From Cololabis saira (Eukaryota > Chordata > Actinopteri > Beloniformes > Belonidae): a DNA stretch of 64,000 nucleotides. The position numbers were made by a program, and so were the translations under genes. The stretch is taken from positions 38,965,505-39,029,504 of the forward strand of contig NC_084590.1 of NCBI RefSeq assembly GCF_033807715.1. Reading direction: 5' to 3'. This document shows, one piece after another, positions 15,401-42,400 of the stretch. Below the pieces are notes generated by a model, which did not search any database, was not told the DNA's origin, and worked only from the letters and a program-made list of their open reading frames with translations. Each line of letters starts with the position of its first letter. Within the stretch, counting starts at the first letter, position 1.

Positions 15401-18400
15401 AGTGAAATGCAAAATCTGCAGAATTGTGAATTAACACAGCACTCAGAACACCAAGCAAATATCTTAAATCTAAATCTATAAATAGAAATGACTACAGTAG
15501 TAGTAAGTATTCCTTATCAACAACTCTGATTCATAGGTAACAGGTATTGAAAAAAAAAACAGCTCTGACATCTCACATCAAATTGTATTAGCGGGCAGCA
15601 AAACCTCCTTGATCAGTATTCAAAAATGTAAACAAACAGTTTTACCAACTGGAAAAAGTGCAAATATATTAACAAGTAGTCAGTGCCATGCAAGGACTAA
15701 ACTGAATCTAGTGCACATCATTCAGGATCTATTGTGAGGTTTTTGGCCAGAAAGACAAGTCTGTCCACAGCATCTGGCTTTAAAGCTGTCCTGTGGCAGG
15801 TAACAATATTGCCACCTGTGCTAAAAGCTCTCTCTGAGGGCGAGCTAGTGGCAGGTATGCAAAGGTACCGCTTTGCAACAAGGCTCACCTTGGGGTATGC
15901 TGTACAGTGGGTCTTCCACCATTCCAGAGGATTGGTGTCACTGTCTGCTAGGGCTGGGCGATTTTGGACAAAAATAAAATCCCGATTTTTTTTCTCTGAA
16001 ACCCCGATTTTCGATTTTTTTTGGTAAAACTACAAAAGACAATGGAATAAATTGTTTCAAATATTTTATCTTTATTTTTAAAGAAAAATAGCAAACAAAT
16101 TTCCCTATTGGGAGTGAAGTGCAATTGAAAGACACTGTAAATCCTCCTTGAGTTTAGTAAAGTGACAACATTTACAATTTTCTTGACCAAACAAAGATGA
16201 CTAGACGAGCTCTGTCTGTAATGCAGCCAGCTGCAAAAAAGGAAAATCGATTTTCCGATTTTCCTTTTTTAACATCGATTTTGATTAATAAATCCGATTT
16301 AGATTTAAAATCGATTAATCGCACAGCCCTACTGTCTGCATTTGCAGATTGCAAGTAACTGTTCAGTTCAGCCTCAACAGCCTGGTGGTCTGTGAGGCCA
16401 GCAGTAGCAACTGGCCTTTTGAAAAAGCTGCCAAGTGTCTTTTTGTGGATGACTGGTGCAGCTGAAATTGATGCTTCTGATTGAGCATTAGGGCTAGAGC
16501 TAGACTGTGAGCTCTTCCATTCATCCAGTATCTGCAAGACCGGATTGACCCGCACAGCCTTTGTCAGCCTGGATGTAGTGGGTCTTAAAGCGAGGATCAA
16601 CAAGGGTCGCCATGCTTAGGAGGTCATCAGTAGCATCATCACTGAATTTCTCGTTCAAATATGTAATGACAGCAGTCTTGATGGCCTTGGTAAGCTCTGC
16701 GTCATCATCTTCTGGCTTCAAGACTTCCTCATTGAAAAGCTGAAGGACCGGTTTCACACATGAGACACTGACATATGCTTCACCAGAAAGGGCGTTAGTG
16801 AAGTCTGCAAGTGGATTTAGGGCCTTGCGGACAGATTCCAATACCTCAACATCTTGCCATGTGGGAACGAGGTGCCTGCTTTTTCTGTCAGCAGACAACA
16901 CTTTTGCAATAGCCTTCTCCTGCTCCAGTACTCGCGCTATCATGGCATGACGGGACCCTCACCTGGTAGGAGATTCGGTGATTAACCTGTGTTTAGGGAG
17001 CTCTAGGTCATCTTGAGCAGTTGCTAGTGCTCTTTTCTTTTTCCACGAGTAAGAAAAAGCACTGACCACTTTCTTGCAAATGCTGACAGCCCTGTCAATT
17101 CTCCGGTCCTTCATACTGCACTCTAGAGGAGAATGAAAGAAAAAAGAAAGAAAAGATTCAATCAGTTATGAAATACTCAATATAATAATTTTAAATGCTG
17201 TTTTTTTTTTTCAAACAACAAGAAAATAAATTGGCGCTTTGTAGTGAATAAGAATAATGTAGTGAATGAGAATGCTATTTTGTTATTAACCTGTAGGTGG
17301 CATTATAGGCTCTAATATTTAAGTAGTAGCAGAGGATATTACATACTTCAAATGTTTTCATGTCTGAGGGTGATCATAACAATATGCAAAACTAGCCAAG
17401 CTAACCTATCGTGAGAGGTTGTACTTTAACTATCATTTCCTGATCTATTTTACTATTTTTAATGTAATTAATTTCATTATTTACTTTTCATTGAAGCACA
17501 CAGTCATTGGAGTCAGACCAAGCATTTCACTATGATTGTACCATGTACAATAAATATAAATAAATTATAAACATTTGTTTTGATTTGATTTAGACAAGGC
17601 TACTAACAGACCTAAAATCATTTTACCATTTTATTTTCAACTATTGCTACACTGTGATATAGCATCAGAAAGAATATAAAAATAAAGATAGGCTACAATA
17701 TATTTCAAAAGTTCGTTTAGGGTATATTTACCAATAGCTGTGTTTAGCCGGTGACCGAAGCACTGCAAGCGAGTCCATCCTTTCAGAGCTACGGCCTTGA
17801 CGATGTTTGCACCGCTGTCTCAGTAAGGCCCCAAGATTCCAGTGCATCCTCAAGTCCCTGGCAAATTATTTCGGCTGTGTGGTCGTCCGGAAAATACACC
17901 GTCTGCAGGCATGTGCTTTGCAGAGCCCACTCCTCATCAATGTAGTGTATCGTCAGACTCAAATAGGGCTCAGATGTGCGACTAGACCACATGTCAGAGG
18001 TGGTCGACGCGAAATGCTTGATATCTTGGTGCCGGGTTTCCAACTTGTTACGGCATTTTTCATAAAGCCGTGGGATGGCAGTCTGAGAAAAATATTTTCT
18101 GCTAGGGATTTCGTACCTCTGGTCCAGCACGTTTAGCAGATATTTAAACCCAGTTCGCTCAACTGTTGAGAGCGGCATCATATCCTTGGCTAGGCAAAAA
18201 GAGTCTGCGTATGTTATTGCTCTATTCCTTTTGGACTGTTTCTCGTTCGGCGTAATGGCTGCAAAGGAGGACACAATTGATTGTTGTTGAGGTTTCGGTC
18301 CTGTGGCTGCACCGCTGGTACCAGGTCTGCGTGCTGAACGCACAGGCTGAGCTCGCATTCTCATACTATCCGAGTAGTCACTTGGATGGTATTTTTTTAA

Positions 18401-33400: not shown

Positions 33401-36400
33401 GATCTAAGGGGGCAGCCACTCAGCAGATCATATTGCTCTTCAGGGTAGCATGGATCTGCCACCAGCTCTATCTCCTGCACCCAGTGCTGCATGAGCCTGC
33501 TCCTGCCATTTTGTTGAATTAAACCTAAAGCAAGGCCTGCATATTAAACAGTACTACTTGATGACGCCTCCCGACTCCTCTGCCCTCCCATCAACTTCGA
33601 GCACCAGGGAGGCAAAAACACTCCTTGCATTTACACTGCCCAGCATGGTGTAAACACAAATTCTTAGTCCAGAGAAATTAATGGGATCTAATTTAAAAAC
33701 TCCTAATGTTATCACTTCATTGCTCATCACGACTCTGTGACGTAATGTTGGGGGAAACTAGTGAATCTAGTTGATAAACCATATTACATGCTTCTTCTTT
33801 TTTTGGGCACACATGCATACATTTTAAGATCAAATAGCCTTAAATTTGGTGAAAGAGTGGGGTATTGCCTCCTATTGTAGGCAAGCTTCTAAAATATGCC
33901 ATGCAGGTTGGATGGCCTTCCCCGTCACACTGTTGTTGAGTTTTCAGTAACTAAAACAATTCTCACACATGCTGATTTATCTTTTTTCTGCTTGTTTTTA
34001 ATTGGCACCTGTGACTCCTCTTCCTTGGTCACCATGAAAGCCAAATAATGCACCATCATCCTCTCATGGGTACGGGTCATGTTCCTTTACACTGCACATA
34101 ACTTAACATGAGTCCTGCACTATCATAACTTTGATCACAAATAACACATACGTCAAATTGCGGTATACCGTAATGCCATAACACGACCATGCAAATGTTG
34201 ATCACCACACAGGTAATTACTTGGATAACAGCACATGAGATTCAAGGCACCAGGTGGTATCGAGTGAAATGGGATAATTTGGAATCTGTTATGGATATCC
34301 CGCTGTATGCTTTGCTTGTGCATATATGTTTAGTATCATTACTTCACTCAGATGTTTGTGAGCTGGTAAGCTGCAGATTGATTGCAGCATGTTAATGAGT
34401 TCCTAGAATCCCTAATTTTTAATAGTGATGTGTGAATGTATACTCCTGCATATGTTGCTACAGCTTCTGTTACAGTTTGGACATGTAGAGAATTTGTCTC
34501 CAAATGCTTTTAGAAGAGGTTCAGATGTCTTTGCTAATTTAAGTGTTTCTGAATGATATTTTTCTTTCTAATTCTGTCCAGGTTTGTGTCATTTTCATAG
34601 TATTCTACCTTTTCTTGACACATGCTCCATACACCTGAGCATACATGTCTCTGCCGTGTTTTGCTTCAACCCGACATGTTCGAGTCACATGAGACTAACA
34701 AGATTCTGACACAAAGATGGAAAAAAAAGTTTAGAATAAATATGAAATATAATGGAAACTTTCTAATGGAGATCAATTTGAAGCAGTATATTTTTGACTA
34801 TTATGTTTGTATCATGTTTTTATTTTAACCAGGTTCTGCACCGAACCTGTGCATTGACCCCATATTTGTACATCAGGGTGTGATTGATGAAACAATGTGC
34901 TACATGCAGTTTATATTTGTATATTATGATGAGCACAATATGAGCATTTGTGTGAATGTTTGTATGAGAAAACCCTGGTAACGAGCTTTGCAGGACCCAG
35001 ACATGTTTAAAAATGAGCTTCATAAATGTGAAGCAGAGTCTTGAAGGGCAGTGCTGAGGATGTTTTGTCCTAAAAGTTGCACCGGCCATGAAAATACGTT
35101 TAACAAGATCACTGACCTTCTATTGATCATCCTTGCTTCCTACACAGCAGCTCAAGCCATCATATATGCAACTGCAACACAAACGATAAGTAGGCACATA
35201 CCACATCTTGAGGTCTTGAACTAAGAGATAGGAACTTGGATAATTATTTAAAAAAATAGAACGTTTTGTGACGAAAGACCATAAGTTAAAGATAAAATTT
35301 GGTAGGACTGGAAGGTAGGTAAACCTGACATTTTTAAAGAAACGCCTTCTGTTTTTGAAGTAGCGTAAAGATGGTGTTCTGTTTGTTGAGTGTGATGTTT
35401 ATATTTGTATATTCTGATTTTAAAGAAATCAGTGTATTGCTTTTTTTATTTAAATCCCCAATGGCAATTTAAGTGAAATACTGTGGTGTTGTGGTACTCT
35501 TCTTCTGATAGGATTTGCTAACTGTTGTTGAAACTTCTGATATTCCGTGCGCTATTAACCATGGAGAAAAGTAATAGCAAATGGTGAAAAAACATTCCCA
35601 AAATAAGTGAATAATGTTGACAAAGCCAAGCTCTTAGCATTACTACAGAAAAGTGTGATCACTCAGTCAAGGTTCAACACCTGTTCTTCATCTCAGCCTC
35701 TTGGTCATGTAACCTCTTATTTGAACATTTTCAAGATTAAAGATGACCTTGTTATAGGGCTGGGCGATTTTGGACAAAAATAAAATCCCGATTTTCTTCT
35801 CTGAAAACCCGATTTTCGATTTCGATTTTGATTTTTTTGGTAAAACTACAAAAGACAATGGAATAAATTGTTTCAAATATTTTATCTTTATTTTTAAAGA
35901 AAAATAGCAAATTTCCCTATTGGGAATGAAGTGCAATTGAAAGATACTGTAAATCCTGAAAGTGACAACATTTACAATTTTCTTGACCAAACAAAGATGA
36001 CTAGACGAGCTCTGTCTGTAATGCAGCCAGCTGCAAAAAAGGAAAATCGATTTTCCGATTTTCCTTTTTTAACATCGATTTTGATTAATAAATCCGATTT
36101 AGATTTAAAATCGATTAATCGCACAGCCCTACCTTTAGTCAAGTCCATTACGTTTGGATTTTAACTTTCGCTGGATTTTTTTGGAGAGTTGTAAAACTAT
36201 ACATTTTTGAAAACTGTAATGTATAAGCAATCGGAAAAACAATGTTTCCATTTGCACAGGTGTCTGCATGGCGGCCATCTTGGATTTTTCAAAACGGTGT
36301 CCAAAAAAACTAAATTTTGTAATTTCTCAGCTTCTGAATAAGTTAGAACACTGATTTTAACTGCTAAACCTACATTTTCAGGGCCACTGAATCCAATGGT

Positions 36401-39400
36401 GGTAGTTTTAATGTTCTCAGACATTTTGTTACTACACTAATTTCTTTGCCCTGGTGATATAAAGTATTTACAAGTACTGTAGATGCATGTCTGACAAGCC
36501 CACCATACAAAACATCTCTGCTGGAATATGCAAAACTGGTGCAGTTTACATGTCCATCATTTTGCTTTACATGTCCAAGCTTGCCTGTGCAAAGCTCACT
36601 ACTACAGTGTACCCAGTATACAGGAGCAGTGCCACATAGTGAATGTATTGAGTGTCAACAAGTGTTCAATCAGTGTTGTCGATTTAGTGACTTAGTCGCT
36701 AGATTTAACGCATGTGAACAGCTGAACAGGCTAATGAAGGTCCACTCTGGACTCATAGGAATCTCCAACAATGCCAATGCCAGACAGAGATTCTTCATGG
36801 TGACACCAGAACTTGCACGCTTGTCGAAGGAGTTCAAAAGCCAATTTCACATGGAAACTGATGGAACCACAGAGCACCATGAGCTTGGGCCAAGTGCTGT
36901 CAAGAGGGCACATCATGCAGTCGACAAGATTAAGGCAGCCATACTCAGTCATGGAACCCCCTTTACAGCTGATGGTGACAAGCTGTACAACATTATCACC
37001 CATGCCTACATTCCAGATGAGTATGTACCACAGATTTTGAATGCAGATGTCACTGGCCAGAAGCTGTATGAAGACTATGTGGCAGAGAGGATCAATGGAG
37101 ATGTCAGTGTCTGGTCAGTGAAGAAGGAGAACAACAAGATGTTCCTGTCTGGGAATAAGAATACAACAGTTAAGCTCCGAGACAAGACTGTAGATCTGAA
37201 GGAGACCAAGGACCTATATGGGATGCTGATGGTACTTGCCAGGTCAAACAGAGACATCAACCAGAAAGAGGCCATTGGGAACTATGAATTCACCCTAACA
37301 CCAAGGGCACTCTTTGCTCCTGATGGAACAGTCCTGCCATGCCATGACAAGTCAAAGTTAATCCATCTCCTGGATGAGCTGGCAATAACAGACATGCCTG
37401 AGAAAGACTCTCAGCAGTCTCAGAATGCCACCAGCCAAGATGCAAGGGACATGGGAATCACAAACTCCATATCTAATGTTCCCCCAAGCCGGAAGATTGC
37501 ACTTGTGGATGGGATGGTACTTGTGAAGACGCTGACCAAAAAAACAGTGACTTTAGTAACAGTCAAGGATCTGAGTGGCTATTTCAATGACCGCCTGATG
37601 TCTCTAACACAAGATTATGATGAGATCCTTCTCGTGTTTGACACCTACAGAGAAGACTCTCTGAAGAGTGCTACCAGAGACAAACGAAGACAAGGCAAAG
37701 CTCCTGTCCAGTACCAAGTCAGAGATGACACCAACATCAAGCACATCCCAATGAGCAGGTTCCTCTCTCATGAGAAAACAAAGGCCGACTTGACCAGCTA
37801 CCTTGCTGCCAAAATCCTAGAGTACAACATGGGATCCACCAAGCTGATCATCACATCTGCTTCTGGGCACACAAGGAGCAACAAAGACCTGCTCTTTGAG
37901 GACAACAACCACGAAGAAGCAGACACACTGCTGATCCACCAGGCAGTGCTGGCGTCACAGCAAAACCCATCTGATGCACAGCTGGTGTTCTTCTCACCAG
38001 ACACAGATGTCTTGGTGCTGGTCATAGCAAACTATGATGTCCTGTTGAAGAACACTTCCATTTCTATGGCATCTGGTGTTGTGCAAATTGAACCACTGTG
38101 GAGTGCTCTAAGTCCAGAAAGAGCAAAGGCTTTGCCTGCCTTCCATGCCTTCACAGGGGCTGACAACACTGGGAGGTTCTCTCACATAGGCAAGACAACA
38201 TGGTTCCAGGTGTACCTCAAAGCTGATGAGGATGTCATCAATGCTCTGCAGATGCTTCTGGAGGAAGCATATGTGACAGGGGGAATGCTTTCAACACTGG
38301 CTACCTTTGTATGTACAGCCTACACACCCAAGGGCATCAGCATCAAGACAATCCCTGACCTACGTTGGCATCTCTTCTGCAAGCATATGGCAGAAGGTGA
38401 CAAGCTCCCTCCAACAATCGGAGCTCTGAAACAGCACATCTTGAGAGTCCATATCCAAACACGGGTGTGGGGACAGGCAGCCATCGCTCAGCAGGTTCCA
38501 CAGTTGGATCCTCTGGAAAATGGGTACTTCAAAGACTCAGATGGTCAGCTAAAAAATACCACCACAGAGGTCCTTCCAGCTCCAAAAGCCATTGTTGAGA
38601 TGGTGAGATGTCAGTGCAAATCAGACTGTTCCTCTGCTAGGTGCTCTTGCAGAACAAAGAACTTAGCCTGTACAGATCTCTGTCAGTGTGGCAGCCACTG
38701 CCAGAATGATGAAGACTCTCAAGACATCACATACGAAAGTGACAATGATGATGATGACGATGAGGTGTAGAGACTGTCAAAAGGGCATGTTCCTTCCTAT
38801 GTGTGACGTTCCATTACACTGACCATGTGCGCATGTCTGTAAAACAATCAATAAAAGAAAAAATCTGTATTAAAATCCATTTTGTTAAGACCTATCCAAT
38901 GTTTGTTGTTGCCATTGGATTCCTTGTCCCTGAAAATGTAGGTTTAGAAGTTACTATCAATGTTCTAGCTTATTCAGAAGCTGAGAAATGTCAAAATGTA
39001 GGTTTTTTGGACGCCATTTTGAAAAATCCAATATGGCCGCCATACAGACACCTGTGCAAATGGAAACATTGGTTTTCTGATTGCTTATACAATATACTTT
39101 TCAAAAATATATAGTTTTCTAACTCTCCAAAAAAATCCAGCAAAAATACATAGTGAACTTGACTACTTGTTATAGGACTTTAGTTTAAGAAAAAACAAAA
39201 ACAGTTTTGTCTTGTTTTCTGACTCAAATTTGAACTTCAGGCTTACACTTTACCATGAGTTATTCATCCCCATTATGTCTAATCCATGTCATGCTGGTGT
39301 TTTTAGGAATTTCTTTTTTTTTTTTTTATAAGCAGCCTTACTAGTTCCTATGGACTAGTTCAGACCATTATACCTACCATCAAACTTGCAATAACCCACA

Positions 39401-42400
39401 TTGTTAACTCATCTCTTAAATCTGGCATCTTTCCCTGTGCTTTCAAGCAAGCTTGGCTCACCCCACTACAGAAAAAACCCACAGTTGAAAACTACCGGCC
39501 GGTCTCACTGCTCCCATTCATGTCTAAAATTGTAGAACGTGCCGTCTTCAGTCAGGTCTCACAGTTCCTTCACGACAACTGCCTATTTGATGCACATCAG
39601 TCAGGCTTCAGGCAGGGCCAGTTAGATTCCATCGTGTGCCCACGTCTTCTGCTAGGAATCTTGATCCTTAAAGGTCAGCTGGCTGTCTGACACCATGTTG
39701 CCTCTGTTTCCCGAGTCTTGCTGATTTGCTCTTTACAACATCAGGGAAATCAGACCGTGCCTGACGGAACATATGACACAGCTCTTGGTTCAGACACTGG
39801 TCATGTCACCCATGGACTACCGTAATTCCTTGTTGGTCGGCCTCCCTGCATGCTCAGTTAAACCTCTGCATATGATTCAGAATGCACCTCCACATGTGGT
39901 CTTCAACCAGCCCAAGAGAGCTCATGTCACTCCCCTGCTAATCTCTCTGCACTGGCTACCAGTTGCAGCGCGCATCAAGTTCAAAGCTCTGCTTCGGGTT
40001 TACCAGGGATTACCCAAACGGCTCCTGCTCACCTTCACTCCTTCATCCAGAGCTACACTCCTTCTCGACAGTTACGCGCAGCCAGTGAAAGACGCCCGGG
40101 GCTCCCACCACAACGTGGTGTGAAATCAGTAGGCAGACTCTTTTCCTCTATTGTTCCGAATGGTGGAATGACCTACCAAACTCTAGTGGTGCTACGGATC
40201 GTCATTGGTCCCCGATCCTTTCTGATCACTATCTTCGGTTCGGCACACACGTGATCCCTGGATTGATTTATGAAGAAAAAAAAAAGAAAAGTTGTGCGCA
40301 TGTTCAGTCCACACAAAGCGTGGTCATGGCAACCGGAGGAGCTGCGAAGCTTGAACGCCCTGCGTCATTTAAATCCCCTGTATGGGACCATTTTGGCTTC
40401 CCTGTCAAATATAATGATGAAAGAAAGAGGTTGGTTGGATAAAACTGTGAAGTGTGTAGGCACTGTGGCACAAGCTATGACAGGGGAAACATATTGAGCA
40501 TGGCCACGCATTTGAAACAAAATCACCCCGTGTTTCAGTGACAGGAGCAAAAACAAAGGCTGCTCAACAACCGCATATCATGCATTTATACAGCCCCCCA
40601 TTGCACAATCTGGCCATCACAGGTGCAGACAGGGGACTCTCTCTCTCTATCTCTCTATATCTCTCTATATCTATATTGCTTTCTTTTGTCCTTCTTTGAT
40701 GTAGGCATAGGCTTTATTTCACTATCCATGGAAGATGACTTGCCTTCTTATGTTGCCTTCTTATGTTGTTTTTCATTTTCATATATATAGATTTTTATAT
40801 ATTTCAATTCAATAATTTAAGTGTTAATAAACAAAAAGACAACTTGTTTGTTTATGTATTTATTTATTTATTTTTTTTACTGATCTGAAAAATGATACAA
40901 TCTGTGACTGAGATCCGATAAACGATCCAATCTGAGTTTTCAGATCCGTTTCACTCCTACCAAACTGTCTGATCTGCAGGGTCCTTACCTACTTTTAAGA
41001 GCAAGCTAAAGACTTCCACATTTAGGGTGCTTTCACACCTGTCCTGTTCAGAGCAGTTGTTCTGAAACAGGGAACGTTTCCCCCTAAAGATCGGATCGTT
41101 TGGTATATATGAACACAGCAATCGCGCTCGGATGCGGCACAAAACAAGCGAGCCGAGATCACCTAGGAGAGGTGGACTCGGCCCGATTCCATTCGAGACC
41201 TGGAGCGGTGCGTTTTTTTTATTTGGAGTGAGAACATAATCCACACAGCAACCGACACAACTCCATTCATGTGTATGTGCTACCGCGGCGCAAGGAGAAG
41301 AGTCGGCGCAGCCTCCACCACCTTCTCTCCTATTGGACGTGCCGAGATGTTCTCATAGCGCGGCACGGTGAAATTAAAAAATTGTTCAATTCGGGCAGGG
41401 TTTGCGCAGCGCAAACCTGGCGGCAGGCGGCCTCTCGGCAGGCGGCCTCTCGGCAGGCGGCCTCTCGGCAGGCGGCCTCTCGCCCGGCGGCCTCTCGCCC
41501 GGCGGCCTCTCGCCCGGCGGCCTCTCGCCCGGCGGCGGTCTGCGCTTCGCGCCCTCTCTGTGAAAGGGGCTCGTTGTTTCCTCGGGGTACGGAAGAGGAA
41601 ACTCCGTCCACGTTCATTTCTGACCAATCAGAGAACAGTTGGTTCGCGCATGGCATTTGTTAACAGCTTTGAACCATTACAGACGGTTGCCTTGTAAACA
41701 CAAACCCCACGAACGAGAAACGAAACAACTGTATCGATTTAGCCCCTGAATCGGAAAAAAACAAACGGGCCACAGGTCTGAAAGCACCCTTCGTTAACTT
41801 TTCCGCTCATTACAAGGAGTTAGATTTGTCCAGCTCTTTGGATGACTCAGTCCTGAGAAAGTTGCATGCACTTATGCCAAGATAATGTTATGATGGTGAA
41901 TTTAAGACCTAGTTTTTCTGAATAAAGGGACTGTTGTGTTGGTTGAGAAGGGAACAAAACATTAAAAAAAAAAAGAATCTGTTTTCTACACCTCATGTTT
42001 GTTTGAAGAAATTTAAGAATGAAAACTAGCTCAATTAAAATGTTTTTGTTTGTATTTTTTTGCTTGTAGTTTGCAGTACTACGCTTTGGATTGGACAGCT
42101 AGACAAGAAAACACAGCAGGCGGATTTGATGTCGGTTTTGGAAGAGTTTGGCCAGATTGAGTCCATCAATGTAAGTGTGGACAATTTGCCTCAGAGATAA
42201 TTGCCTCTTTAATCCAAAGCGAATGGAATTTTCAAATTAACTTTTAACTTTTGCTCTTTTTGTCCAGATGATTCCTCCAAGGGGCTGTGCCTATATTGTT
42301 ATGGTTCACAGGCAGGATGCCTATACAGCCTTGAGCAAACTCAGAAGAGGGTCATACAAAGTCAACCAAAAACCTGTGAAGGTATGTTGTTTTCATACTT

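Follow-up and report, generated by a model that had tools for sequence, protein, structure and literature searches.

A predicted FEN1/EXO1-type nuclease in the truncated gene of a DNA transposon from Cololabis saira

The window analyzed here is a 64,000-nucleotide stretch of the Cololabis saira genome (NC_084590.1, positions 38,965,505 to 39,029,504 of the forward strand), and the feature under study is an open reading frame (ORF) that encodes 678 aa when counted from its first ATG (Table 1). The ORF lies in an element of 3,030 bp with terminal inverted repeats (TIRs), a 3-bp target duplication, and other copies of its family in the genome, all of which agree with an earlier reading of the sequence (the original prediction) that had labeled it a transposon ORF. 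The insertion split the 8-bp duplication CCTTGTTA on the right side of an older hAT-like element, and because the younger element sits inside this duplication, both its empty site and its own 3-bp duplication, CTT, are fixed. The older element is one of two non-autonomous hAT-like copies of about 380 bp (15949-16331 and 35755-36131) that are about 92% identical and have the termini TAGGGCTG...CAGCCCTA; the copy at 15949-16331 is flanked by a separate 8-bp duplication, CTGTCTGC. The 89% identity between the inverted repeats of the younger element was considered as a sign of an old copy and dropped, because left and right ends are 9-12% divergent in other copies as well, whereas ends from the same side match each other at 95-100%.

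The reading frame is unbroken, as had been claimed, and is open even upstream of the ATG, from a GTG at 36539. Two features of this region were missed originally. The ATG at 36734 corresponds to a mid-protein position in a gene that is truncated at its 5' end, and the stretch of frame from 36539 to 36706 is the leader of the element, read through in frame. Searched separately, the upstream piece 36458-36706 had no convincing relative (best E 2.3) and is likewise leader. Bases 1-574 of the element (36136-36709) are common to other copies, and one of these, L017, has about 1.4 kb between its left end and the start of the N-terminal coding part. A protein search returned relatives of about 1,500-1,670 aa. 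Similarity of the ORF to one of them, P0130 (1,610 aa), begins only at residue 942, and the 678 residues make up the C-terminal ~40% of the full-length protein type, with more than half of the relatives' protein gone.

The original prediction had matched seven acidic residues of the ORF, D259, D303, E395, D397, D423, D425, and D477, to the metal-binding carboxylates of FEN1. All seven are found at these positions, in the same succession as D34, D86, E158, E160, D179, D181, and D233 of FEN1, as a passage of PMC6009646 lists them. The spacing that had been pointed out also holds, with E395 and D397 and likewise D423 and D425 lying two apart and D425 and D477 lying 52 residues apart; the remaining intervals are unlike those of FEN1 (44, 92, and 26 in the ORF versus 52, 72, and 19 in FEN1). 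A further argument drawn from an I-G of a helix-turn-helix carries no weight, because its Ile is not conserved among homologs, where the consensus is G-x-G-K.

Conservation was read from an alignment (A1) of the window protein with 42 homologs, picked for coverage and with fragments omitted from 120 listed of 170 relatives. Only 8 of the 89 acidic residues of the ORF are the same in every one of the 43 rows. The predicted carboxylates account for seven of them; the eighth, E185, lies upstream of the matched fold. A random seven of the 89 would fall inside the invariant eight with a probability of 1.2e-9, which bears out the earlier remark that such a match is unlikely by chance. The seven occur in fixed order in 43/43 rows of A1, in 28/28 of a second alignment (A3, 28 of 75 proteins found, picked for length), and in 8/8 of a third (A4). 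Just one of the seven is fully invariant in alignment A2, a low value that results from the inclusion of gapped fragments. K311 is also invariant in A1, and R318 is present in at least 90% of A1, 26/28 of A3, and 8/8 of A4. These two basic residues are 7 positions apart, equal to the spacing of Lys93 and Arg100 in the gateway helix of FEN1, which are called invariant in a passage of PMC5490271.

The domain that holds these residues (residues 206-593) has the predicted fold of a FEN1/EXO1-type 5' nuclease, with residues 223-247 inside the fold modeled at a predicted local distance difference test (pLDDT) value below 50. Structure prediction had been proposed as a check for a PIN-like fold, and the model agrees with a PIN/FEN fold, with the fold match starting near residue 206. 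The domain is like FEN1, EXO1, and XPG in its predicted fold, the order of its metal-binding carboxylates, and its equivalents of Lys93 and Arg100. It is unlike them in being internal to a long transposon protein with a CXC-like cysteine-rich tail behind it, and its activity is a prediction. When the model was compared with a viral fold library, its nuclease matched predicted FEN/XRN-like folds from giant viruses and from herpesviruses of fish and frogs (Allo54 and others), matches that we read as superfamily membership only. No relative was confirmed among 88 and 31 pattern matches in viral and prokaryotic contig collections.

The full-length relatives, ordered by eye and with Pfam, have N-terminal cysteine/histidine motifs, a DUF6589-matching region in some, the nuclease, and the CXC-like tail. 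PF03638 matches this tail weakly in relatives, below the curated cut-off, and Pfam gave no PF03638 match in the window protein itself. D520, H717, D942, and E946 are invariant in A3 (28/28) and D688 is present in 27/28, and the acids conserved here are likely the DDE set of an RNase H-type transposase. The window ORF keeps E946, while D520 and D688 are gone. With two of three likely DDE acids missing, this copy would need another copy to supply the protein for its movement, and its incomplete transposase sets it apart from an autonomous transposon. DUF6589 (PF20231), for which Pfam states no function and a literature search found nothing naming it, scores above the curated cut-off in P0073, P0084, and P0115 and below it in P0001, P0011, P0130, P0128, P0146, and L025; the window protein, which is without that region, has no DUF6589 match. 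Among the matches listed, the closest source-named relatives are mostly from bony fishes, and those further off are from corals, a sea anemone, a sea spider, and a whitefly. The bacterial labels on P0019 and P0109 probably reflect host DNA in those assemblies.

We consider it likely that an internal deletion removed the front of a DNA-transposon gene and left its 3' part as the ORF, and that the encoded protein includes a predicted FEN1/EXO1-type nuclease. In full-length relatives this nuclease stands behind a likely DDE transposase, and its role during transposition would be to trim 5' flaps at the element ends. Several observations weigh against this explanation. A Pfam scan of the window protein gave no match, there is no sequence-level similarity to the FEN1, XPG, or PIN families, and both sequence and profile searches of the PDB returned only weak, unrelated rows; it was fold comparison, and not these searches, that led to FEN1. 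Identity to FEN1, EXO1, and XPG is 10-14% in structural alignments (10-12% for FEN1 and EXO1), template modeling (TM) scores are modest (at most 0.29 by query and 0.57 by target), and the root mean square deviation is high in several Foldseek superpositions. In human FEN1, the processed N-terminal Gly2 sits in the active site, according to a passage of PMC5490271. In the models of the ORF and of P0073 the nuclease domain starts only around residues 206 and 621, respectively, and since it is internal, we do not file it as FEN1 itself. In the N-terminal half, Pfam found no DUF6589 in the full-length P0122, P0141, P0144, L023, and L026, and an RNase H fold was not seen; the model of P0073 starts after the likely first Asp and its family rows fall on the nuclease. 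A fold search with this model gave no credible row for the transposase part, an absence that says nothing against a transposase fold because the likely first catalytic Asp is outside the model and one domain fills the list.

The last such point concerns the substrate. EXO1, FEN1, XPG, and XRN are too close in the fold comparisons for a substrate to be named. The original interpretation is partly supported. A possible but doubtful alternative is that the domain is a 5'-3' exonuclease, EXO1- or XRN-like, degrading one strand or RNA in place of cutting flaps. The superfamily and the active site would be common to both enzyme types, score differences of about 1 Z count as ties, and the spacing of Lys93 and Arg100 of FEN1 is kept, which argues against it.

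Further copies were sought in the genome (1.146 Gb, 730 contigs). The counts are lower bounds, with 65/769 (ORF search), 29/1,121, and 40/43 (noncoding 3' end search) candidates scored, and copies holding the DDE half alone may be missed. There are at least 75 matches to the ORF, and 18 further loci were read (19 with that of the window). Among these 19, a 3-bp duplication flanks 13/13 insertions with both ends readable (Table 1). Outside this count are L015 (flanks as L014), L012 (left end altered), L009, L011, and L017 (one end), and L026, which has an intact 1,488-aa ORF and unresolved ends. L013 and L014 have one internal deletion in common at different targets, which indicates that a deleted copy has moved. 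No whole-gene copy of the window's own family was found among the scored candidates; L019, from a second family, keeps positions 457-1610, in two frames. Intact relatives encode proteins of 1,526 aa (L023 and L024) and 1,532 aa (L025), and in all three the seven carboxylates, the two basic residues, and the residues of the likely DDE set are present. L023 and L024 look recent, since their proteins differ by just 4 residues, and may be active. The noncoding 3' end search (best 40 of 43 scored) found no TIR-only family, only three TIR fragments (C19, C7, C4:46.1 Mb). L014 and L015, about 3 Mb apart on C3, have identical insertions and flanks and are a segmental or assembly duplicate. The nuclease region of G000:C3:10532026-10534957 is 94% identical to the window's family in one stretch and 67% in an overlapping one, and this locus is possibly recombinant or nested.

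These features likely place the element in AcademX, a group within the Academ superfamily of DNA transposons (Kojima 2020, cited in PMC10045372). A passage of PMC10045372 gives duplications of 3-4 bp for AcademX versus 9-10 bp for AcademH, seemingly tied to the encoded nuclease and helicase, respectively. The elements described here resemble AcademX in their 3-bp duplications without a fixed sequence, their inverted repeats, their likely DDE transposase, and an element-encoded nuclease, predicted at the level of fold and residues; unlike AcademX, the window copy has lost most of its transposase part. The AcademX nuclease has been named as XPG-type. PMC10045372, in the part concerned, says only "nuclease". 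A nuclease-carrying transposon group that likely holds this element is already described, and the original prediction correctly read a real active site, most likely in an element of a known kind. There is a modest chance that the element belongs to a different superfamily that makes 3-bp duplications, as several do; the likely Academ placement is drawn from features described for the group. However, the 13 duplications have no common sequence, whereas Harbinger sites are TWA, and an element-encoded nuclease is a feature ascribed to AcademX. Kolobok offers a parallel outside Academ, with its lineages KolobokD, E, P, and H carrying accessory nucleases or helicases according to a passage of PMC9587614. 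These too are DDE transposons with an extra DNA-processing enzyme, but the enzymes are DnaQ-type, lambda-exonuclease-like, His-Me finger, and RecQ, and the superfamily is another.

Selection on the ORF was assessed from nonsynonymous (dN) and synonymous (dS) divergence between the window and nine family copies (45 pairs; L015, the duplicate of L014, was dropped). These 10 copies are separated by a dS of about 0.02, with dN/dS falling between 0.5 and 1.1 in 35/45 pairs; the other ten pairs range from 0.41 to 3.53, with the short copy L017 in both extremes, and pairs with L018 are low (0.41-0.83). Stops occur at aligned codons in 5/9 other copies. L017 is altered at the D425 position and has lost the region of D259 and D303, while the remaining eight keep all seven acids, L016 having a stop at R318. 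We read the change as near-neutral, which suggests that the window ORF is not kept by selection and would be intact since the copy is young, not clearly since it is used. Six of 7 distinct deletions end before the nuclease core, versus 74% each under uniform breakpoints, and selective keeping of the nuclease by derivatives was not supported by dN/dS or by breakpoints. It is quite improbable that selection has maintained the ORF, after loss of the transposase half, as a stand-alone nuclease gene that is domesticated or still of use. The 678 intact codons with all seven acids, the low ratios of L018, and an excess of nuclease-half over DDE-half matches among the scored genome candidates would fit such a gene, but the other ratios at so low a dS, the stops, the mid-protein ATG, the differing deletions of the copies, and a nuclease retention not above expectation do not. 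A chance resemblance, with scattered acids and an unrelated fold, would fit the lack of a sequence match in Pfam or PDB but is already contradicted, and we give it almost no credence.

If the ORF is the remnant of a transposon gene with a flap nuclease, its function can be pictured from the chemistry of transposition. A DDE transposase joins the 3' ends of the element to staggered target cuts, which leaves short gaps, and the non-transferred strand often has an overhanging 5' end. Junctions of this kind call for a 5'-flap nuclease, a role proposed for host FEN1 in retroviral integration; flap trimming is for this reason taken as the most likely job. In full-length elements the nuclease would act on the non-transferred strand, trimming its 5' overhang or opening it at excision, after which the gaps would be filled and sealed, and it would thereby help finish each move. 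More tentatively, trimming of new junctions by the element's own nuclease might free it from host FEN1 and set the 3-bp duplication, and deleted copies could supply the nuclease in trans.

This analysis provides a testable function for a large eukaryotic protein family whose nuclease region is below every Pfam cut-off in 18 proteins scanned. Whether a transposon repairs its ends with a flap nuclease of its own could be studied in the three intact copies, each of which combines an ORF of about 1,530 aa with a clean duplication of 3 bp. They could also show whether the nuclease sets duplication length, as a passage of PMC10045372 suggests for AcademX versus AcademH.

Table 1. Features of the element in the window, and duplications and extents of related elements
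Feature	Position	Strand	Basis or remark
Older hAT-like element, TAGGGCTG...CAGCCCTA	35755..36131		Its right 8-bp duplication is the target of the younger insertion
Left target-site duplication, CTT	36133..36135		Sequence read
Left TIR, begins TAGTCAAG	36136..36399	+	Repeat comparison
5' leader	36400..36709	+	Common to other copies; outside coding region of relatives; frame upstream of first ATG
Internal-deletion junction, AC common to both sides	36708..36709	+	Leader joined to codon ~943 of P0130 (1,610 aa)
ORF, 678 aa	36734..38770	+	C-terminal ~40% of full-length type
Predicted FEN1/EXO1-type nuclease fold, residues 206-593	37349..38512	+	Holds D259, D303, K311, R318, E395, D397, D423, D425, D477
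Cysteine-rich CXC-like (Tesmin/TSO1-like) tail, residues ~624-655	38603..38698	+	Cysteines invariant in A4
Right TIR, ends CTTGACTA	38912..39165	-	Repeat comparison
Right target-site duplication, CTT	39166..39168		Sequence read
Duplications, window's family			Window CTT, L010 AGA, L013 ATA, L014 CTT, L016 AAT, L018 ACA
Duplications, second family (~70% protein identity)			L019 TAA, L020 CCA, L021 GTA, L022 TAC
Duplications, intact full-length relatives			L023 TAA, L024 ATA, L025 TGG
Full-length element L023	635-7972
Full-length element L024	737-8896		Reverse-strand coordinates
Full-length element L025	892-9003		Reverse-strand coordinates

Two other features of the window lie downstream of the element. 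Broken remains resembling a long interspersed nuclear element (LINE) reverse transcriptase were recognized by eye at 39383-40250, where the one open frame scanned had no Pfam match. A G+C-rich 15-bp tandem repeat, CAGGCGGCCTCTCGC, is present in 7.5 copies at 41424-41536 and is open in several frames on both strands.
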